A DNA stretch of 36,974 bases, from NCBI GenBank assembly GCA_944383545.1, contig CALWPY010000016.1, positions 1 to 36,974 of the forward strand. Direction: 5' to 3'. The notes under the pieces were generated by a model that was not told the origin of the DNA, searched no databases, and worked only from the letters and a program-made list of their open reading frames with translations. Position numbers and translations under genes: made by a program. The first letter of the stretch is position 1. Every line of letters begins with the position of its first letter. The stretch is from an uncultured Lachnospiraceae bacterium. GTDB lineage: Bacteria > Bacillota > Clostridia > Lachnospirales > Lachnospiraceae. Shown piece after piece: positions 1,642 to 36,974 of the stretch.

Positions 1642-1662
1642 ACTTTCTCCATAATCATAAAT

Positions 1663-1986
1663 ACACATGGACGCGACGCATAAAAATCGCTTAGCGGTAC
1701 CGCGCGCACGAAAAATCGCACTTCGTGCGATGGCGCGCGAGTAGTTCATCAATTTGTTACACAAATTGGTGAAGAACGCGATGGCGTCGCGGCTGTCCCC
1801 CTCCCGTTGGTCGGCGGAATCATTACACATGGACGCGACGCATAAAAATCGCTTCAAGGTATCGCGCGCATGAAAAATCGCACTTCGCACGATGGCGCGC
1901 GAGTAGTTCATCAATTTGTTACACAAATTGGTGAAGAACGCGATGGCGTCGCGGCTGTCCCCCTCCCGTTGGTCGGCGGAATCATT
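1663..1986. repeat. Tandem GC-rich 162-bp repeat, two copies
   Basis: Two direct copies, 1663-1824 and 1825-1986, differ by a few bases. Each copy has an outer stem (CGCGACGC near one end, GCGTCGCG towards the other), a GC-rich hairpin with a CTTCG core and CGCGCG arms, and a CATCAATTTG/CAAATTGGTG hairpin. The unit ends CCCCCTCCCGTTGGTCGGCGG, which resembles the right part of the element at 35313-35381. The unit is exactly 54 codons long with no stop in the radA frame, so it creates a spurious N-terminal extension. It fills most of the 394-base gap between radA and the next gene. The composition is far richer in GC than the flanking genes. I read it as a dispersed intergenic element, not a gene. 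Confidence 0.85.
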
Positions 1987-1992
1987 ACTGCA

Positions 1993-2541: not shown

Positions 2542-4992
2542 TTACTTCACAGAAAATTTTATTTTATTATCCTTTACAGAAATGCTCACCTTATCGCCTG
2601 CCTTTATATCGCCTTTAAGGAGTTCCTGTGCCAGTTCATCCTCAACATAGGTCTGTATTGCACGCTTAAGCGGACGGGCACCGTATTTTTTATCGTAGCC
2701 CTTTTCAAATACATATTTCTTAAGAGTCTCGCCGTAAGAAATTTTTATACCAAGGTTGTCTTCAGCACGCTTCTTTAATTCCTTAAGCATTAAGGAAGCA
2801 ATATTTATGACATCTTCTTCCGTAAGTGAGCGGAATACTATAATGTCATCAATTCGGTTAAGAAATTCCGGCTTAAACATCCTCTTAACCTCATCCATTA
2901 CATTATCTTTCATATCCTTATGGTCACTTTCAGCATCATCACTTGCCAGAAATCCAAGCTTCTTAGGGTCTACAATGCTTCTTGCTCCCGCATTAGACGT
3001 CATAATTATTATCGTATTTTTAAAATCTACTTTTCGTCCCTGGGAATCCGTAATCATTCCGTCATCCAAAACCTGAAGAAGTACGTTAAAAACATCAGGA
3101 TGTGCCTTTTCAATTTCATCAAACAGTACAACTGAATAAGGATGCTTTCTTACATTTTCGGAAAGCTGTCCTCCTTCCTCAAATCCGACATATCCCGGAG
3201 GTGAGCCTATCATTTTAGACACGCTGTGCTTCTCCATATATTCAGACATGTCTACCCTTATGATATTTGCCTCGTCACCAAATAACACTTCAGCCAGTGC
3301 TTTTGAAAGCTCAGTTTTTCCAACTCCGGTAGGTCCGAGGAAAAGGAATGAGCCTATAGGCCTCTTAGGGTCTTTAAGCCCTACCCTGCCTCTTCTTATT
3401 GCCTTTGCCACTGCATTTACAGCTTCATCCTGTCCTATTACCCTCTTATGGAGAGTCTCCTCAAGCTTAAGCAGTCTCTGCTGCTCTGACTGTGTAATTT
3501 TACTTATCGGTATTTTTGTCCATAAAGATACGACATCAGCCACATCTTCTGCATTAACTATTCCTACATCCCTGTCTTTTAAAGATTTGCTTCTGTTAAT
3601 TCTTAAAATCTTTTTATCGGCTTCATCAAGCTTTTCCCTGATTTCAGATGCCTTTTCATAATCTCCGTCAGAAAGAGCCTCCTCCAGATTTCTCTCCAGC
3701 TCATTTTTTTCTCTTTCTATACCTGATGCAGATTTTGTTCCCGTAATCATACCCAGTCTCTTTCTGGCGGCAGCTTCGTCAATTAAATCTATTGCCTTAT
3801 CAGGAAGAAATCTGTCATTAATATATCTTATTGAATAATTAACAGCTGCAAGAAGCGCTTCTTCCGTAATGGTAACATTGTGGTGTTCTTCGTATTTATA
3901 GACAATTCCTCTCAAAATTTCCATTGTCTCATCTTTGTCCGGCTCTTCCACATAAACAGGCTGGAATCTTCTTTCAAGTGCGGCATCTTTTTCAATGTAT
4001 TTTCTGTATTCTGTTCTTGTTGTAGCGCCTATTATCTGAATTTCTCCTCTTGATAAAGAAGGCTTCAAAATATTAGAGGCATCCATCGCACCCTCGGCGC
4101 CTCCGGCACCTATAATGGTATGAAGTTCATCTATAAAAAGAATTACATTTCCTGCAGCGCGCACTTCATTTATAACCCTCTTTATTCTCTCTTCAAATTC
4201 ACCTCTGTATTTTGAGCCTGCCACCATGGCAGATAAATCCAGACAAAGAAGTCTTTTATCTCTTAAGGTTTCCGGTACATCTCCTGCTGATATAAGCTGT
4301 GCCAGTCCCTCTACTACCGCAGTTTTTCCTACTCCGGGCTCACCTACAAGACATGGGTTATTTTTCATTCTTCTGCTTAAAATCTGCATGACTCTTTGAA
4401 TTTCCTCATGTCTTCCCACTACGGGGTCAAGACCTCCTTCCAGAGCTAGCTTGGTTAAATCCTTACTGAACTGCTCAAGTGTAGGAGTTGGTGATTTCTT
4501 CTTGGCTGCACCGTTTTTAATACCGTTATACTCTTTCTTTGCCGTCTGTGCATCCACTCCGCATGCAGTAAGTGTTTCAATGTAAAGTCTCTGGATGCTG
4601 ATATTAAGGGCGGCAATAAACTTAAGCGCCACTGAATCCTGCGATTTAAGTATGGCAAGAAGGAGATGTTCCGTGCCTATACCGGTTGCTTTAAGTCTTG
4701 CGGCCTCTTTACCTGCCTCCTCTAAAAGCAGGTCAGCTCTTCTTGTATATCCGCCTTTTCCTTTAGCATCCATCAAATCACCATCATCATCTCTGAGACG
4801 ATTCATAAGCATATCAAGTTTCGTTTTATCTATGCCGTTTTCGGCAAGTACTTTATAAGCGGTACCCTTTTCTATCTCTACCAAGCCAAAAAGAATATGC
4901 TCACTTCCAATATAGCTTTGTCCAAGAGAATCAGCAATTTTTCCCGCACTGTCAAGTGCTTTTTGTGCGAGAGCCGTAAATTTTAGTCTCAT
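2542..4992 (-). CDS. clpC: ATP-dependent Clp protease ATPase subunit ClpC
   Basis: Hexameric AAA+ unfoldase (816 aa) that feeds substrates to ClpP. Two N-terminal Clp repeats (1-145) bind adaptors. The first AAA+ module has Walker A GEPGVGKT at 217-224 and Walker B FIDE at 286-289. A UVR-type coiled coil at about 425-465 marks ClpC rather than ClpA or ClpB. The second module has GPTGVGKT at 553-560 and FDE at 624-626. LGF at 679-681 is the expected ClpP-docking tripeptide. The start codon overlaps the stop of the GntR gene in ATGA with GGAGG just upstream, so translation is probably coupled. The usual low-GC Firmicute partners ctsR, mcsA and mcsB are absent here. A GntR regulator takes the position of ctsR. 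Confidence 0.95.
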   Translation of the reverse strand: MRLKFTALAQKALDSAGKIADSLGQSYIGSEHILFGLVEIEKGTAYKVLAENGIDKTKLDMLMNRLRDDDGDLMDAKGKGGYTRRADLLLEEAGKEAARLKATGIGTEHLLLAILKSQDSVALKFIAALNISIQRLYIETLTACGVDAQTAKKEYNGIKNGAAKKKSPTPTLEQFSKDLTKLALEGGLDPVVGRHEEIQRVMQILSRRMKNNPCLVGEPGVGKTAVVEGLAQLISAGDVPETLRDKRLLCLDLSAMVAGSKYRGEFEERIKRVINEVRAAGNVILFIDELHTIIGAGGAEGAMDASNILKPSLSRGEIQIIGATTRTEYRKYIEKDAALERRFQPVYVEEPDKDETMEILRGIVYKYEEHHNVTITEEALLAAVNYSIRYINDRFLPDKAIDLIDEAAARKRLGMITGTKSASGIEREKNELERNLEEALSDGDYEKASEIREKLDEADKKILRINRSKSLKDRDVGIVNAEDVADVVSLWTKIPISKITQSEQQRLLKLEETLHKRVIGQDEAVNAVAKAIRRGRVGLKDPKRPIGSFLFLGPTGVGKTELSKALAEVLFGDEANIIRVDMSEYMEKHSVSKMIGSPPGYVGFEEGGQLSENVRKHPYSVVLFDEIEKAHPDVFNVLLQVLDDGMITDSQGRKVDFKNTIIIMTSNAGARSIVDPKKLGFLASDDAESDHKDMKDNVMDEVKRMFKPEFLNRIDDIIVFRSLTEEDVINIASLMLKELKKRAEDNLGIKISYGETLKKYVFEKGYDKKYGARPLKRAIQTYVEDELAQELLKGDIKAGDKVSISVKDNKIKFSVK

Positions 4993-13966: not shown

Positions 13967-14207
13967 TGCACTTCGTTCGAATGGGGCTGCGCTTCGTGTG
14001 GCACCCTTCTCAGTTTCTTGGAATACGGGTTGCGCAGCCATTTTAATTCGAACTTCGTTCGAAGGGGCTGCGCTTCGTGTGGCACCCTTCTCAGTTTCTT
14101 GGAATATGGGTTGCGCAGCCCATTTTGAGTTCGAACTTCGTTCGAATGGGGCTGCGCTTCGCACTAAGGAATCCTCCCACACTTCGTGCGGGTCCCTCCT
14201 TAGTGCG
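13967..14207. repeat. Island of 83-bp GC-rich repeats with CTTCG hairpins
   Basis: CTTCGTTCGAA recurs at 13971, 14053 and 14136, giving periods of 82 and 83 bases and slightly over two copies. Each full unit has an inverted repeat GGCTGCGC...GCGCAGCC enclosing GTGGCACCCTTCTCAG, and adjoining GAACTTCGTTC hairpins. The island closes with an 11-bp perfect stem, CGCACTAAGGA (14160-14170) with TCCTTAGTGCG (14197-14207), around a CTTCG hairpin. A minus-strand frame across it (13925-14182) repeats AAQPIFQETEKGATRSAAP, but it has no ribosome site and I reject it as a gene. This fills most of the 410 bases between the glycosyltransferase gene and glnN. Confidence 0.85.
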
Positions 14208-33130: not shown

Positions 33131-33176
33131 AAAAAGTCCTGACATGCGTTGATATTGTAGCACATCAGGACTTTTT
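33131..33176 (-). terminator. Terminator of the paralogue array
   Basis: A perfect 12-bp stem, AAAAAGTCCTGA (33131-33142) and TCAGGACTTTTT (33165-33176), with a 22-base loop. It ends the array transcript before ychF and could act on both strands. Confidence 0.85.
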
Positions 33177-33187
33177 TGTACATAGAT

Positions 33188-33490
33188 TTATAAATTTGTT
33201 TCCGCCACAAAAGTGTCACAAAAATTAATATTAATGCAGCAAATAAAAAATTCTGCATATCCGTTCATATCTATACCAAGCTCCTCTGAATCAGTCATAT
33301 AGGTATCTAACAGCTTTGACAGGGCTGCAATTTCCCAGTACGTTGCACCCTCTGTCATCATTTTATCAATTCTTTCACAGTCTACAACGCCATCATTATA
33401 TATACTATTAAAAGTAGGTGTAATTACTCCGTCTCCTACCTGGTCCAATTTAGTCTGAAAGTAACTTGCAAATATACTGCCATATGACAT
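33188..33490 (-). pseudogene. Fragment of the large array protein
   Basis: A 100-residue frame matching only the middle of the large array protein. SYGSIFASYFQTKLDQVGDG, TPTFNSIYNDGVVD and EIAALSKLLDTYM correspond to the split gene at 34085-35869. Homology continues upstream to about 33515, in frame with the preceding small gene but behind its TGA. On the other side it stops abruptly after YAEF near 33245, where an unrelated tail (ICCININFCDTF) follows. It lacks both the first 125 residues and the shared C-terminal domain. The ATG at 33490 has no clear ribosome site. I read it as a recombination remnant. Confidence 0.7.
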
Positions 33491-33523
33491 GTCTACACTT
33501 CCGTATTTTGCATAGTTCTCAAT

Positions 33524-34057
33524 TCAATAACCTAATTCTTCCAATGCTTCTTCACAAGCTGCTTCAAGCTGCTCACGGGTTGCAGTTTCATAATCAAGAC
33601 CCTGTTCATTTAATACTGCCCAGATTTTAGCTGCATATTTTCTGTAGTCAGTCCATCTTCCAGTAAAAGCTATTCCTTCTTCATATACAAATTCACAATA
33701 ATCCTTTAATTCTTCTGTGCTTTCATCAAATTCATAGTTTTTAACATAGATATAAAATTGCTCCTTTATCTGTTCAGGAGTTATTGTTAAGCCTACTTTA
33801 GCATTCATGTAATAAATCCTCACAATCAAGTCAATATCACAAAATTCTAAATCATTGATTACAACCTTATCATCTTGAATAATGACTTCTCCATCAACCG
33901 GTATATAATTTAGTAACTTTTCGGCCTCCCTCGACTGTCTTATTAATAGGTTTTCTTTCTCTATTTCTTTTTCTCTTTCCTTTATTCCGATTATTATTAA
34001 ATAAACTGTCAGCGCTACTACCACAATCAAAACTGTTATAATCTTTTTTCTCTTCAT
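33524..34057 (-). CDS. Small membrane-anchored array protein (intact copy)
   Basis: A 177-residue protein of unknown function. It has a basic start MKRKKI, one membrane helix at about 6-25, a charged coiled segment (KEREKEIEKEN) at about 26-50, then the array's shared domain at about 55-175 with GEVIIQDDKVVI, YEFDESTEELKDYCEFV and the ending TATREQLEAACEEALEE. The same domain ends the large array proteins. The ATG at 34057 has GGAG seven bases upstream. The ATG at 34069 has none. It begins 28 bases after the large gene's stop. The size, anchor and pairing would suit an immunity-type or partner protein, but nothing in the sequence proves this. Confidence 0.75.
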   Translation of the reverse strand: MKRKKIITVLIVVVALTVYLIIIGIKEREKEIEKENLLIRQSREAEKLLNYIPVDGEVIIQDDKVVINDLEFCDIDLIVRIYYMNAKVGLTITPEQIKEQFYIYVKNYEFDESTEELKDYCEFVYEEGIAFTGRWTDYRKYAAKIWAVLNEQGLDYETATREQLEAACEEALEELGY

Positions 34058-34084
34058 TTTTTTCTCCATACAAAATCAAAAATA

Positions 34085-35263
34085 TTATTTCCCAAGTGCT
34101 TTTTGGCAAGCCATTTCCAACTGTTCACGGGTTGCTGTATCTATATCAGTTTGCATATTTGTTAACTCATCTAATACTACACCCCCATACTTATTATAAT
34201 TTGAGGTTATTTTACCAGACAGCATTCCATCTTCCTCTACAAATTTACAAAAATCCTTCAAGTCCTCTGTATTTCCGGATGATAATTCATAGTTTCTCAA
34301 CTGCTGTTCAAGCTCCTCCAGACTTAAATTCGAACCTGTTTCTGCATTATAATAATTAACTCTCAGAAGTAACTCTCTTTCATCAATCATACGATTATTA
34401 ATAAGTATATCATCCCCATACTGGCACACAGTGCCACCAGCCGCCAAATCAGTAAGCGTCCTTTTATAATTTACTGCATTGATTAATCCATCAAGCTGCT
34501 GATTATATTCGATAGTTTCCTCCCTGACCTGTGACAGTCCAAAAAGGTCTATGCCAAATTTAACAGTATTTTCTCCTCCTCCGTATAAACTCTCATTTGC
34601 GCCCGCACTAACAGCCAAATTTTCTGCTATGTCACCTGCCGTGTCAATTGCCAAATCCTTCATGATTTTTACGCCGGCAAGTACCACTTCCTTGTCTTCA
34701 TCCTTCTTGCCACCTTCAAAGGTATTATTCAAAGCACCATCAAAATTTGCACTCAAGGAATCATCAAACAGATAAATTGTAATCGGCTTTATTTCAAGCA
34801 TGTTTTCCAATATACTCTCCTTCGCATATGGTACATCTATTGTTATGCTGTCCAATTTATCATATCCTGCTTCTCCTGTTATCATAAGCAGGTGTCCATA
34901 ATGCTCCTGTTCTACGTTAATGCAATTATAATAGTTGCATATCATCATCAGACTGTCACTTATAAAACAATTATACCTCACCTTTTTATCGTCCTCTTCA
35001 CTGTTTATCTCACTATTTCCGTATCCCGCTCCATGGTTTATCAGTGTTTTTTCCGTGACATTCTGACGATACAGCATCAAATCAGTTACGGTATTCGATA
35101 AAACGTAAATTCCAATAGTATCGGACGGGCAAATGTAACAATGATCCAGAAATTCTGCATATCCGTTCGTATCTATACCAAGCTCCCCTGAATCATTCAT
35201 ATAGGTATCTAACAGCTTTGACAAGGCTGCAATTTCCCTGTACGTTGCACCCGCCAGCATCAT
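34085..35263 (-). CDS. Large array protein, C-terminal piece of a split gene
   Basis: A 392-residue frame continuing the piece at 35327-35869 in the same frame. Only a TAA inside an inserted repeat separates them. It begins MMLAGATYREIAALSKLLDTY. The middle (EGGKKDEDKEVVLAGVKIMKDLAID, GANESLYGGGENTVKFGIDLFG) has a Gly/Ala-rich amphipathic character, and the last 130 residues are the shared array domain (GGTVCQYGDDILINNRMI, NYYNAETGSNLSLEELEQQLRNYELS, TATREQLEMACQKALGK). There is no signal peptide, lipobox or known catalytic motif. The ribosome site before 35263 is poor, so independent translation is uncertain. Joined, the two pieces would make a protein of about 590 residues. The family is unknown to me. 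Confidence 0.6.
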   Translation of the reverse strand: MMLAGATYREIAALSKLLDTYMNDSGELGIDTNGYAEFLDHCYICPSDTIGIYVLSNTVTDLMLYRQNVTEKTLINHGAGYGNSEINSEEDDKKVRYNCFISDSLMMICNYYNCINVEQEHYGHLLMITGEAGYDKLDSITIDVPYAKESILENMLEIKPITIYLFDDSLSANFDGALNNTFEGGKKDEDKEVVLAGVKIMKDLAIDTAGDIAENLAVSAGANESLYGGGENTVKFGIDLFGLSQVREETIEYNQQLDGLINAVNYKRTLTDLAAGGTVCQYGDDILINNRMIDERELLLRVNYYNAETGSNLSLEELEQQLRNYELSSGNTEDLKDFCKFVEEDGMLSGKITSNYNKYGGVVLDELTNMQTDIDTATREQLEMACQKALGK

Positions 35264-35312
35264 TTTATCAATTCTTTCCCAGTCTACAACGCCATCATTA
35301 TATATATTATTA

Positions 35313-35381
35313 TTGGACTCGGCGCATTATAAACGCTTCGCGTTGGCGCCTCGGGCGGCCCCCTCCCTTCGCTCGGCGGCA
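35313..35381. repeat. 69-bp GC-rich repeat inserted in the large array gene
   Basis: Compared with the related copy at about 33410, where TATTA joins directly to AAAGTAGG, this copy has 69 extra bases between the same flanks. The insert has nested stems (GGCGC with GCGCC, ACGC-TTC-GCGT) and ends CCCCCTCCCTTCGCTCGGCGG, close to the end of the 162-bp repeats near radA. Being 23 codons long it keeps the frame but brings a TAA at 35327-35329. Confidence 0.8.
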
Positions 35382-35869
35382 AAAGTAGGCGTAATTGCTC
35401 CGTCTCCTACCTGGTCCAATTTAGTCTGGATGGAACTGGTAAATATACTGCCATATGCTATGTCTACACTTCCGTATCTTGCGTAGGTTTCTCTTGCTTT
35501 TCCTAATTCTTCAGGTGTCCATGCATGAGTCCCCGGTGCACCAACACTAATAACGTCTACCAATGCCCTCATGGACGTTATATAATTATCTAACGCCTCT
35601 GATTTATGATTTGCCAGGGTATTTCCGTATGTCTCATCAAGCTCTCTTACATCCTCAAACCGTTCTCTTACTGAGGCTTCAGTATAACCGCACTCAGTAA
35701 TCAAATCATAATAATGATTTAGAAGATTCTCCCGCTCCGTTCCAAGAATATCCTCGCCTCCCATGTATTCATTCATTGCATTAAACAGGCCATTGGGATC
35801 GTTGAAATCAGCCTCTATATCCTCCATTTCTCCATCTGCAATTAATAGAATTTGTATTTCTCCTTCCAT
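35327..35869 (-). CDS. Large array protein, N-terminal piece of a split gene
   Basis: A 180-residue frame starting MEGEIQILLIADGEMEDIE with a helical region (NEYMGGEDILGTERENLLNH, SVRERFEDVRELDETYG) and YGSVDIAYGSIFTSSIQTK. The last 17 residues (AAERREGAARGANAKRL) come from the inserted repeat. No N-terminal signal, LXG or WXG100 signature can be claimed. The ATG at 35869 has weak TGGA upstream. A TTG at 35887 is also in frame. It begins 45 bases after the small gene's stop, so the array reads as one transcript. Confidence 0.55.
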   Translation of the reverse strand: MEGEIQILLIADGEMEDIEADFNDPNGLFNAMNEYMGGEDILGTERENLLNHYYDLITECGYTEASVRERFEDVRELDETYGNTLANHKSEALDNYITSMRALVDVISVGAPGTHAWTPEELGKARETYARYGSVDIAYGSIFTSSIQTKLDQVGDGAITPTFAAERREGAARGANAKRL

Positions 35870-35914
35870 ATAAATTCCACTGAGCAATTTAATGCATAAA
35901 TGGTATCATAGATA

Positions 35915-36440
35915 TTATTCCTCAAGAGCTTTCTTACAAGCTTCTTCCAACTGCTCTCGGGTTGCATTCTTTCTATCTGTCTTCATTTCTGCTAATGCAA
36001 AATCTATTCCCGTTATATATTGTTCATAATCCCAATTGGCTCCTTCTACAAAAATTCCTTCTTCCTCAACAAATGCACAAAAATTCTCCAACTCTTCTGT
36101 ACTTTCATCAAATTCATAGCTTTCAACATAAATATAAACCTGTTCCTTTATCTGTTCAAAAGTTATTGTTGGCTCCGTTTTCCAATTATAGTAACAAATC
36201 CTTATAACCAGTTCACATTCATTCATTTTCAAATCAGAAATCTCAACCTTATCATCTTGGATAACTATTTCTCCACTTGCAGCTATATCCCGTATCAGTC
36301 TTTCAGCATTAAACGACTGTCTTTTTAATAAGATTTCTTTCTCTCTTTCCTGCTTTTCTCTTACCTGTATTCCTATTATTAAATAAGCTGTCAGCAGTAC
36401 TCCTACCACAATCAAAACTGTTATAATTTTTTTTCTTCAT
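35915..36440 (-). pseudogene. Small membrane-anchored array protein, frameshifted at A8
   Basis: A second copy of the small protein, about 175 codons. The ATG at 36440 follows GGAG as in the intact copy, but the tract of eight A (36427-36434) puts the next codons out of frame. Loss of one A would restore IITVLIVVGVLLTAYLIIG and the rest. The intact copy has this run interrupted (AGAAAAAAG). From 36415 the frame is open: membrane helix, coiled segment and the shared domain ending TATREQLEEACKKALEE-like (NATREQLEEACKKALEE). It may be a pseudogene, a phase-variable gene or a sequencing error in a homopolymer. Confidence 0.65.
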
Positions 36441-36470
36441 TTTTCTTTTCTCCATACAAAATCAAAAATT

Positions 36471-36974
36471 TCATTTTCCCAGTGCTTCTTTACACGCTGC
36501 TTCAAGCTGTTCTCTGGTTGCCGTCTTTCTATCTGTCTTCATTTCTGCTAACGCAAAATCTACTCCCGTTTTATATTGTTCATAATCCCAATCCGATCCA
36601 GCACTCATCGCTCCTTCTTCCTCAACAAATGCACAAAAATCTTCCAAGTCCTCTGTATTTCCAGATGATAATTCGTAGTTTCTCAATTGCTGTTCCAGTT
36701 CCTCCAGTGTCAAATCCGAACCAGTTTCTGCATTATAATAATTAACTCTAATAAGTAACTCCCTCTCATTAATCATTCGATTATTAATAAGTATATCATC
36801 CCCATACTGGCACACCGTGCCACCAGCCGCTAAATCATGAAGAATTCTTTTATAATTTACAGCATTGATTAATTCATCAAGCTGCTGATTATATTCCATG
36901 GTTTCCTCCCTGACCTGTGACAGTCCAAAAAGGTCTATGCCAAATTTAACAGTATTTTCTCCTCCTCCGTATAG
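36471..36974 (-). CDS. Large array protein, C-terminal part, cut by the window edge
   Basis: An open frame from the window end to TGA at 36471 (167 codons), with no internal stop. It starts inside LYGGGENTVKFGIDLFGLSQV and covers the shared domain (GGTVCQYGDDILINNRMI, NYYNAETGSDLTLEELEQQ). The last 60 residues (EEEGAMSAGSDWDYEQYKTG, FALAEMKTDRKTATREQLE) match the neighbouring small gene better than the other large gene, a sign of gene conversion. The 5' part lies outside the window. Function unknown. Confidence 0.7.
   Translation of the reverse strand, partial: LYGGGENTVKFGIDLFGLSQVREETMEYNQQLDELINAVNYKRILHDLAAGGTVCQYGDDILINNRMINERELLIRVNYYNAETGSDLTLEELEQQLRNYELSSGNTEDLEDFCAFVEEEGAMSAGSDWDYEQYKTGVDFALAEMKTDRKTATREQLEAACKEALGK

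Follow-up and report, generated by a model that had tools for sequence, protein, structure and literature searches.

Why would a large protein and the small membrane-anchored protein encoded beside it end in the same domain? The question is raised by an array of genes at positions 33188-36974, on the minus strand, of the 36,974-nucleotide (nt) stretch of DNA analysed here (the window), which is the entire contig CALWPY010000016.1 (hereafter C16) from the 2.26-Mb genome of an uncultured Lachnospiraceae bacterium (GCA_944383545.1). Large frames alternate with small ones in this array, and a C-terminal domain of about 130 residues is common to both. The arrangement recurs in other genomes, and some of the tails are mosaic. 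As a rule, an immunity protein bears no sequence relation to the toxin that it blocks. The explanation that we favour, and to which we give an even chance, is that the genes form an effector-immunity array of a type VII secretion system (T7SS), whose anchored partner would be a copy of the effector C-terminus; export, toxicity, protection and binding are all putative.

Results

A C-terminal domain common to large and anchored proteins

The small protein, used as a query against its own genome, matched the C-termini of two large proteins (E 3.5e-22 and 7.9e-20). Moreover, the four window copies still matched a profile built without any window sequence (E 8.1e-7 to 1.8e-12, with the search size set to 30000). 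Because the match persists when all the window sequences are left out of the profile, the sharing is not due to chance, and the common domain reported in an initial annotation of this DNA, made from the letters alone, is confirmed.

The small protein gave a confident model (predicted local distance difference test score, pLDDT, of 93.5), with an N-terminal membrane helix (residues 2-55), a beta-hairpin (58-76) and five helices. A large protein of a second member of the family, Lachnospiraceae SIG296 (locus L031), was modelled with low confidence (pLDDT 42.9 overall), and its C-terminus is predicted to hold a hairpin (460-476) and five helices in the same order. With its positive N-terminus and single N-terminal membrane helix, the small protein is predicted to face outwards.

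Searches for relatives of the domain found no settled family. Among the Pfam and NCBIfam models none matched the window pieces at its cut-off, and PADLOC reported nothing for them; PHROGs gave weak partial matches only, the best of which (E 0.0063 over 42 residues) was to a family of unknown function. In a sequence search of the PDB the two large pieces had no match and the small protein had no credible one (best E 0.23), and the fold of the small protein had no known match in the PDB (best E 0.82) or in BFVD (viral; best E 0.15). Searched against PDB sequences, the domain profile had its best match (E 9e-4) in protein A constructs, across 24 helical residues; no single stretch passed alone, and we took the match as chance. 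The domain constitutes a new family, confidently modelled and matching no fold.

Probable link to a type VII secretion locus

Three places in the genome contain the N-side part of the large gene, two of them in C16 and the third in the first 515 bases of another contig, C17. C17 starts within the N-terminus of a large gene, C16 finishes within a large gene, and searches of the genome yielded no further place for either half of the gene. Given such a start of C17, the array most likely extends into that contig, and we strongly infer that it is linked, across an unassembled contig gap, to the T7SS locus on C17 (locus L021). In a near-identical genome (uncultured Eubacteriales SI.O94 bin 178, L028; EssC 100%), a contig ends in the same large gene.

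The EssC gene lies upstream on C17 (TIGR03928, 1158 bits against a cut-off of 778) and adjoins WXG100- and YukD-like genes, the arrangement of an EssC-type T7SS. The WXG100_ESAT6 matches at the locus (E 7.3e-9 and 1.6e-8) both fall below the curated cut-off, and YukD scored 26.7 bits (E 9.5e-6), its cut-off being 27. Small proteins encoded upstream include a weakly WXG100-like one of 103 amino acids (aa; E 0.015), one of 101 aa and a weakly YwqH-like coiled-coil protein of 161 aa (E 0.011). The locus also encodes a CpaE/MinD-like (CpaE/TadZ-like) ATPase and two proteins with an FHA domain, one of which is a membrane protein that has a weak trypsin-like match as well. The components of T7SSf include the TadZ-like ATPase TsfV, the FHA protein TsfJ and the PPM phosphatase TsfF (PMC11217815). 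EssC, the YukD-like, FHA and WXG100 proteins and the TadZ-like ATPase resemble the T7SSf/non-b variants (PMC11217815), whereas a PPM phosphatase was not noticed by eye in 20 kb of C17 (L021 1-20000), DUF6382 was unmatched, and the FHA-domain membrane protein is an extra. The large gene most likely occupies the effector position of this locus.

The N-terminal part of the large protein is weakly similar to proteins at six other EssC loci (E 8e-7 to 1.4e-3), and in each of the three that were inspected the protein comes just after small helical genes. A 512-aa protein encoded at EssC locus L127 of genome G104, with a lipase-like front (PF11187, 34.3 bits against 21.1), is matched at its C-terminus (residues 405-498) by the first 100 or so positions of the profile built from the large proteins (E 4.5e-5 in one search and 4e-4 in another). 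This protein (2623-4161, minus strand) adjoins EssC and WXG100-like genes, and we liken it to TslA, with its 'reverse' lipase layout (PMC10730906). Because similar parts recur at EssC loci and behind a lipase-like front, these matches support a targeting role for the N-terminal part of the large protein. The LXG model (PF04740) had no match in the window pieces, in L022, L023, L038 and L125 or in the 607-aa protein of L031, and reached 14.1 bits in the large protein of L124, below its cut-off of 26.5. LXG loci usually have Lap genes 5' and the immunity gene adjoining the toxin domain (PMC10730906); small helical genes, candidate effector and candidate immunity gene stand in that order here too, a likeness of order in which the immunity role is putative.

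Recurrence in other genomes

A scan with EssC covered the best 80 of 193 loci. The layout, in which a large protein is followed by one to three anchored proteins ending in the same domain, recurs in other genomes (Table 1). Judged by layout, an anchored protein follows the large one in 9 of the 10 cassettes examined, the exception being L023. For strict support of the domain we required E<1e-3 with a cassette's own lineage left out of the profile. Both partners had it in three of the ten (that of the window genome, L038 and L124), the large protein alone in four (L022, L023, L145 and L146), the anchored partner alone in two (both from L031) and neither in one (L125). The lipoprotein of L038 scored E 1.6e-11 with the neighbouring large protein in the profile and itself out, and 1.4e-5 with the lineage left out; that of L022 scored E 8e-7 with the large domains of its own genome in the profile and 1.0 without them. 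Large and small frames, as listed, share 4 nt in both L124 and L145, and 38 nt in one of the L031 cassettes. Anchored copies without an adjoining domain-bearing large protein occur at L026, L126, L144, L107 and L147. At the level of the order, 6 of 392 genomes matched at E<=1e-4, two of which (G301 and G435) we judged false.

Two anchored proteins, of 362 aa in L125 (3055-4143) and 430 aa in L147 (855-2147), appear by eye to combine the middle region of the large protein with the C-terminal domain, as if the anchor had replaced the secretion N-terminus. In L026 (8880-9803), L107 (8066-8992) and L144 (9272-10204) the anchored domain protein is directly preceded by another anchored protein, of about 310 aa and, by eye, leucine-rich-repeat-like in appearance.

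Matched tails of neighbouring partners

In two of the lineages, the large protein and the neighbouring small protein match far better over their last 45-65 residues than over the remainder. Large copy 1 of the window is like large copy 2 at 81 of 86 informative sites and then at 13 of 56, being like small copy 1 at the rest, and this mosaic break was equalled in 0 of 1000 permutations. In L124 the large protein and the first small protein agree at 89 of 191 sites and then at 175 of 187 (0/2000 permutations).

Layout and decay of the array

The array is partly decayed and is truncated by the contig edge at 36974; one gene, a small one, is intact (Table 1). The initial annotation had described large proteins of about 590 residues alternating with small ones, at least two of each plus a fragment, and one terminator closing the set. 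Large and small frames do alternate on the minus strand, and two large copies, two small copies and a fragment are there; however, no complete protein of about 590 residues is encoded in the window, and only small copy 2 is intact, a decay that had gone unreported. Small copy 1 is listed from TTG 36415 because the upstream ATG 36448 is out of frame, and its longer homology match contains one TGA. Large copy 2 is, overall, a 601-codon stretch interrupted by an internal stop; its N-side piece is identical to the N-terminus on C17 at 142 of 170 aligned residues, and the GC-rich insert is missing from the homologous stretch near 33389-33450.

The single terminator also held up: the hairpin that closes the array has a stability z of -5.8, a value that none of 200 shuffles reached, and a simple terminator scan that allowed loops of 3-8 did not pick it up. 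The genes on its far side look ordinary; by their sequences we take them to be ychF, mraZ, rsmH and division genes.

Table 1. Features of the window array and cassettes of like layout at other loci of the family Lachnospiraceae
Feature	Positions	Strand	Description
Large copy 1, final 167 residues	36471..36974	minus	Gene cut by contig edge; C-terminal domain starting near residue 40
Small anchored copy 1	35915..36448	minus	166 aa from TTG 36415; hydrophobic N-terminal segment retained; displaced start
Large copy 2, N-side piece	35327..35887	minus	186 aa, read from a TTG; lacks the normal N-terminus
GC-rich insert, about 66 nt	35315..35380	minus	Introduces stop into large copy 2
Large copy 2, C-side piece	34085..35263	minus	392 aa; middle region and C-terminal domain
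Small anchored copy 2	33524..34069	minus	Intact (181 aa); membrane helix at N-terminus, then beta-hairpin and five helices
Third large copy, fragment	33188..33517	minus	Listed as 100 aa from ATG 33490
Array-closing hairpin before ychF	33131..33176	minus	UUUUU end; 17 pairs, loop 12, -23.5 kcal/mol
L031 (Lachnospiraceae SIG296), two cassettes			Small helical genes (WXG100-, YwqH-, YwqI-like by eye) first; large protein of 538 or 607 aa, with two anchored proteins (324, 322 aa) or one (195 aa) after it
L038 (Lachnospiraceae RUI456)			658-aa large + 212-aa lipoprotein
L022			608-aa large + 202-aa lipoprotein
L023			578-aa large; no partner
L124			628-aa large + 187- and 195-aa anchored
L125			767 aa + 362 aa; also 447 aa with two domains
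L145			799-aa large + 183, 205 and 208 aa
L146			1006-aa large (partly masked) + 179 aa

Short GC-rich repeats related to one another occur at window positions 1662-1988, in the insert at 35315-35380, and at L021 12768-12807 and 13561-13601. The first of these is a 162-nt tandem repeat in two copies at the start of the radA frame; about 41 nt of the insert are 78-80% like the repeats near radA and between the C17 lipoprotein genes, and a 14-base pattern from the insert has one exact copy in the genome. A further tandem repeat, of 81 nt in 2.3 copies, lies at window positions 13970-14161.

A sister effector array on C17

The same genome carries a second T7SS effector array at L021 10105-17592, on the minus strand. 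Its effector-position proteins, of 363 and 366 aa, are identical at 176 of 186 N-terminal residues and at 75 of 171 in the rest, and are followed by three and one tandem lipoproteins, respectively (lipobox by eye); the 363-aa protein has, by eye, a glycine-zipper-like end segment. This array looks like an ordinary one of the polymorphic effector/lipoprotein type, and the sharing of a domain is special to the window array.

Discussion

The initial annotation had guessed at a cassette of effectors and immunity proteins. That guess has gained support, in that the large gene most likely stands in the effector position of a T7SS locus and the layout recurs elsewhere. Two outcomes that would have spoken against it, a domain belonging to a settled known family and large and small genes that are rarely adjacent in other genomes, did not come about, and the EssC locus on C17 lies beyond the stretch it had seen. 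The shared domain may, as it also suggested, mediate pairing or compete for one partner.

In the mechanism that we propose, the large protein would be a T7SS substrate made up of an N-terminal targeting part, a middle region and the shared C-terminal domain, and the small helical partner genes directly upstream would accompany the targeting part. Once secreted, the large protein would act through its C-terminal domain on the envelope of a neighbouring cell. The small protein would be an outward-facing, membrane-anchored immunity partner made from the same domain, and the producer and its kin would be spared through displaying that domain on their membrane, where the anchored copy may co-assemble with and block the incoming domain, or occupy the site that it needs; the acidity of the domain does not separate mutual binding from competition for a third site. 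Partner matching may be set by the last 45-65 residues, and recombination between neighbouring genes could hold large and small tails matched as the array changes. The gene order, the tandem anchored genes, the orphan fragments and the exchange of tails fit such an effector-immunity array. A more specific version, in which one domain would serve as both poison and antidote, with protection through recognition of like tails or substitution by the anchored copy, so that the array would be a self-recognition code rewritten by tail exchange, is offered tentatively and seems to us somewhat doubtful.

Several known systems offer parallels. In T7SSf clusters, predicted substrates are followed downstream by several candidate immunity genes (Garrett, Higginson, Palmer 2024, PMC11217815), and the accessible part of that paper makes no mention of effector and immunity proteins sharing a domain. 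As in TelC-TipC (PMC9484751) and TslA-TilA (PMC10730906), the candidate effector gene stands by small helical genes and the candidate immunity gene by the putative toxin domain, and the candidate immunity proteins are anchored proteins or lipoproteins, with tandem copies that recombine; with TslA there is the further likeness that the putative targeting part is also found behind a lipase-like domain, in L127. Unlike in those two systems, the anchored protein here is homologous to the effector C-terminus, and the LXG model stays below its cut-off in the large proteins tested. The tipC, esaG and tspA fragments are comparison cases for tandem immunity arrays (PMC9484751), and TspA-TsaI and the Rhs orphan arrays likewise have partial effector copies among downstream immunity genes; however, TsaI is polytopic, unlike the small anchored protein, and domain sharing is not described for TspA in the available part of that source (PMC9484751). 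A functional parallel is provided by the wtf meiotic drivers of fission yeast, whose antidote is the poison with an extra N-terminal domain and in which matching C-termini matter for neutralisation by co-assembly (PMC11892871); those are products of one gene with two transcripts, acting in yeast spores, and we claim no homology. In the abstracts, passages and sections covered from the open-access literature, from which most subscription papers and bioRxiv preprints are absent, no T7SS effector was found described as sharing its C-terminal domain with an anchored neighbour.

A number of observations weigh against an effector-immunity array. Neither a toxin family nor a catalytic motif nor a known fold emerged from the family and structure searches. 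In the sister array the lipoproteins have no similarity to the C-terminal halves of the effectors (Z -0.5 to 2.1), and since that array lacks such sharing, sharing is not a local rule. The domain is rare, present in 4 of 299 genomes of the family, including that of the window; L023 has a large protein but no small one beside it, at L026, L126 and L144 the large protein or remnant next door lacks a domain match, and at L107 a large match was not found. As to the tails, they are clearly matched in only two lineages, and pair 2 of the window is unmatched, with 17 of 45 tail residues alike as compared with 18 of 45 between large copy 2 and small copy 1. Small copy 2 shows no mosaic break (188/1000 permutations), and in one L031 cassette (L031a) and in L022 the closest relative is not the cognate partner. 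Moreover, gene conversion between tandem paralogues could yield matched tails without any binding.

This last point leads to the view that the domain is an old one, common to proteins with unrelated roles, and that the matched tails are a by-product of recombination between adjacent paralogues. The window paralogues are 73-93% alike across stretches of 130-300 nt, the mosaic break falls within a stretch conserved between large and small proteins, and the tails of pair 2 are unmatched; we nonetheless consider such an origin unlikely. We find it similarly improbable that the anchored protein is a non-toxic tether or receptor, retaining the secreted large protein on the surface of the producer by homotypic contact, as in an adhesin, in signalling or in T7SS assembly. 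This would suit a domain common to both proteins, a small protein predicted to face outwards, the missing toxin signature and the anchored proteins of L125 (362 aa) and L147 (430 aa) with their apparent middle region; however, conflict loci typically show a variable number of anchored genes (here one to three), orphan fragments and varying tails (PMC9484751), and the same locus contains a polymorphic array of effectors with lipoproteins. That the small protein is associated with the machinery, or acts as a chaperone-like partner, and guides the large protein to the secretion channel we regard as very improbable: its gene does come directly after the large gene and its product is membrane-anchored, but small helical partner genes are already present upstream, the domain is predicted to lie outside, and tandem copies and lipoprotein versions (L022, L038) suit immunity better.

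If the array does pair effectors with anchored copies of their own C-termini, their tails matched by recombination, new specificities of toxin and immunity protein could arise jointly in a simple way, and kin identity would become readable from sequence in Clostridia with little-studied type VII systems.

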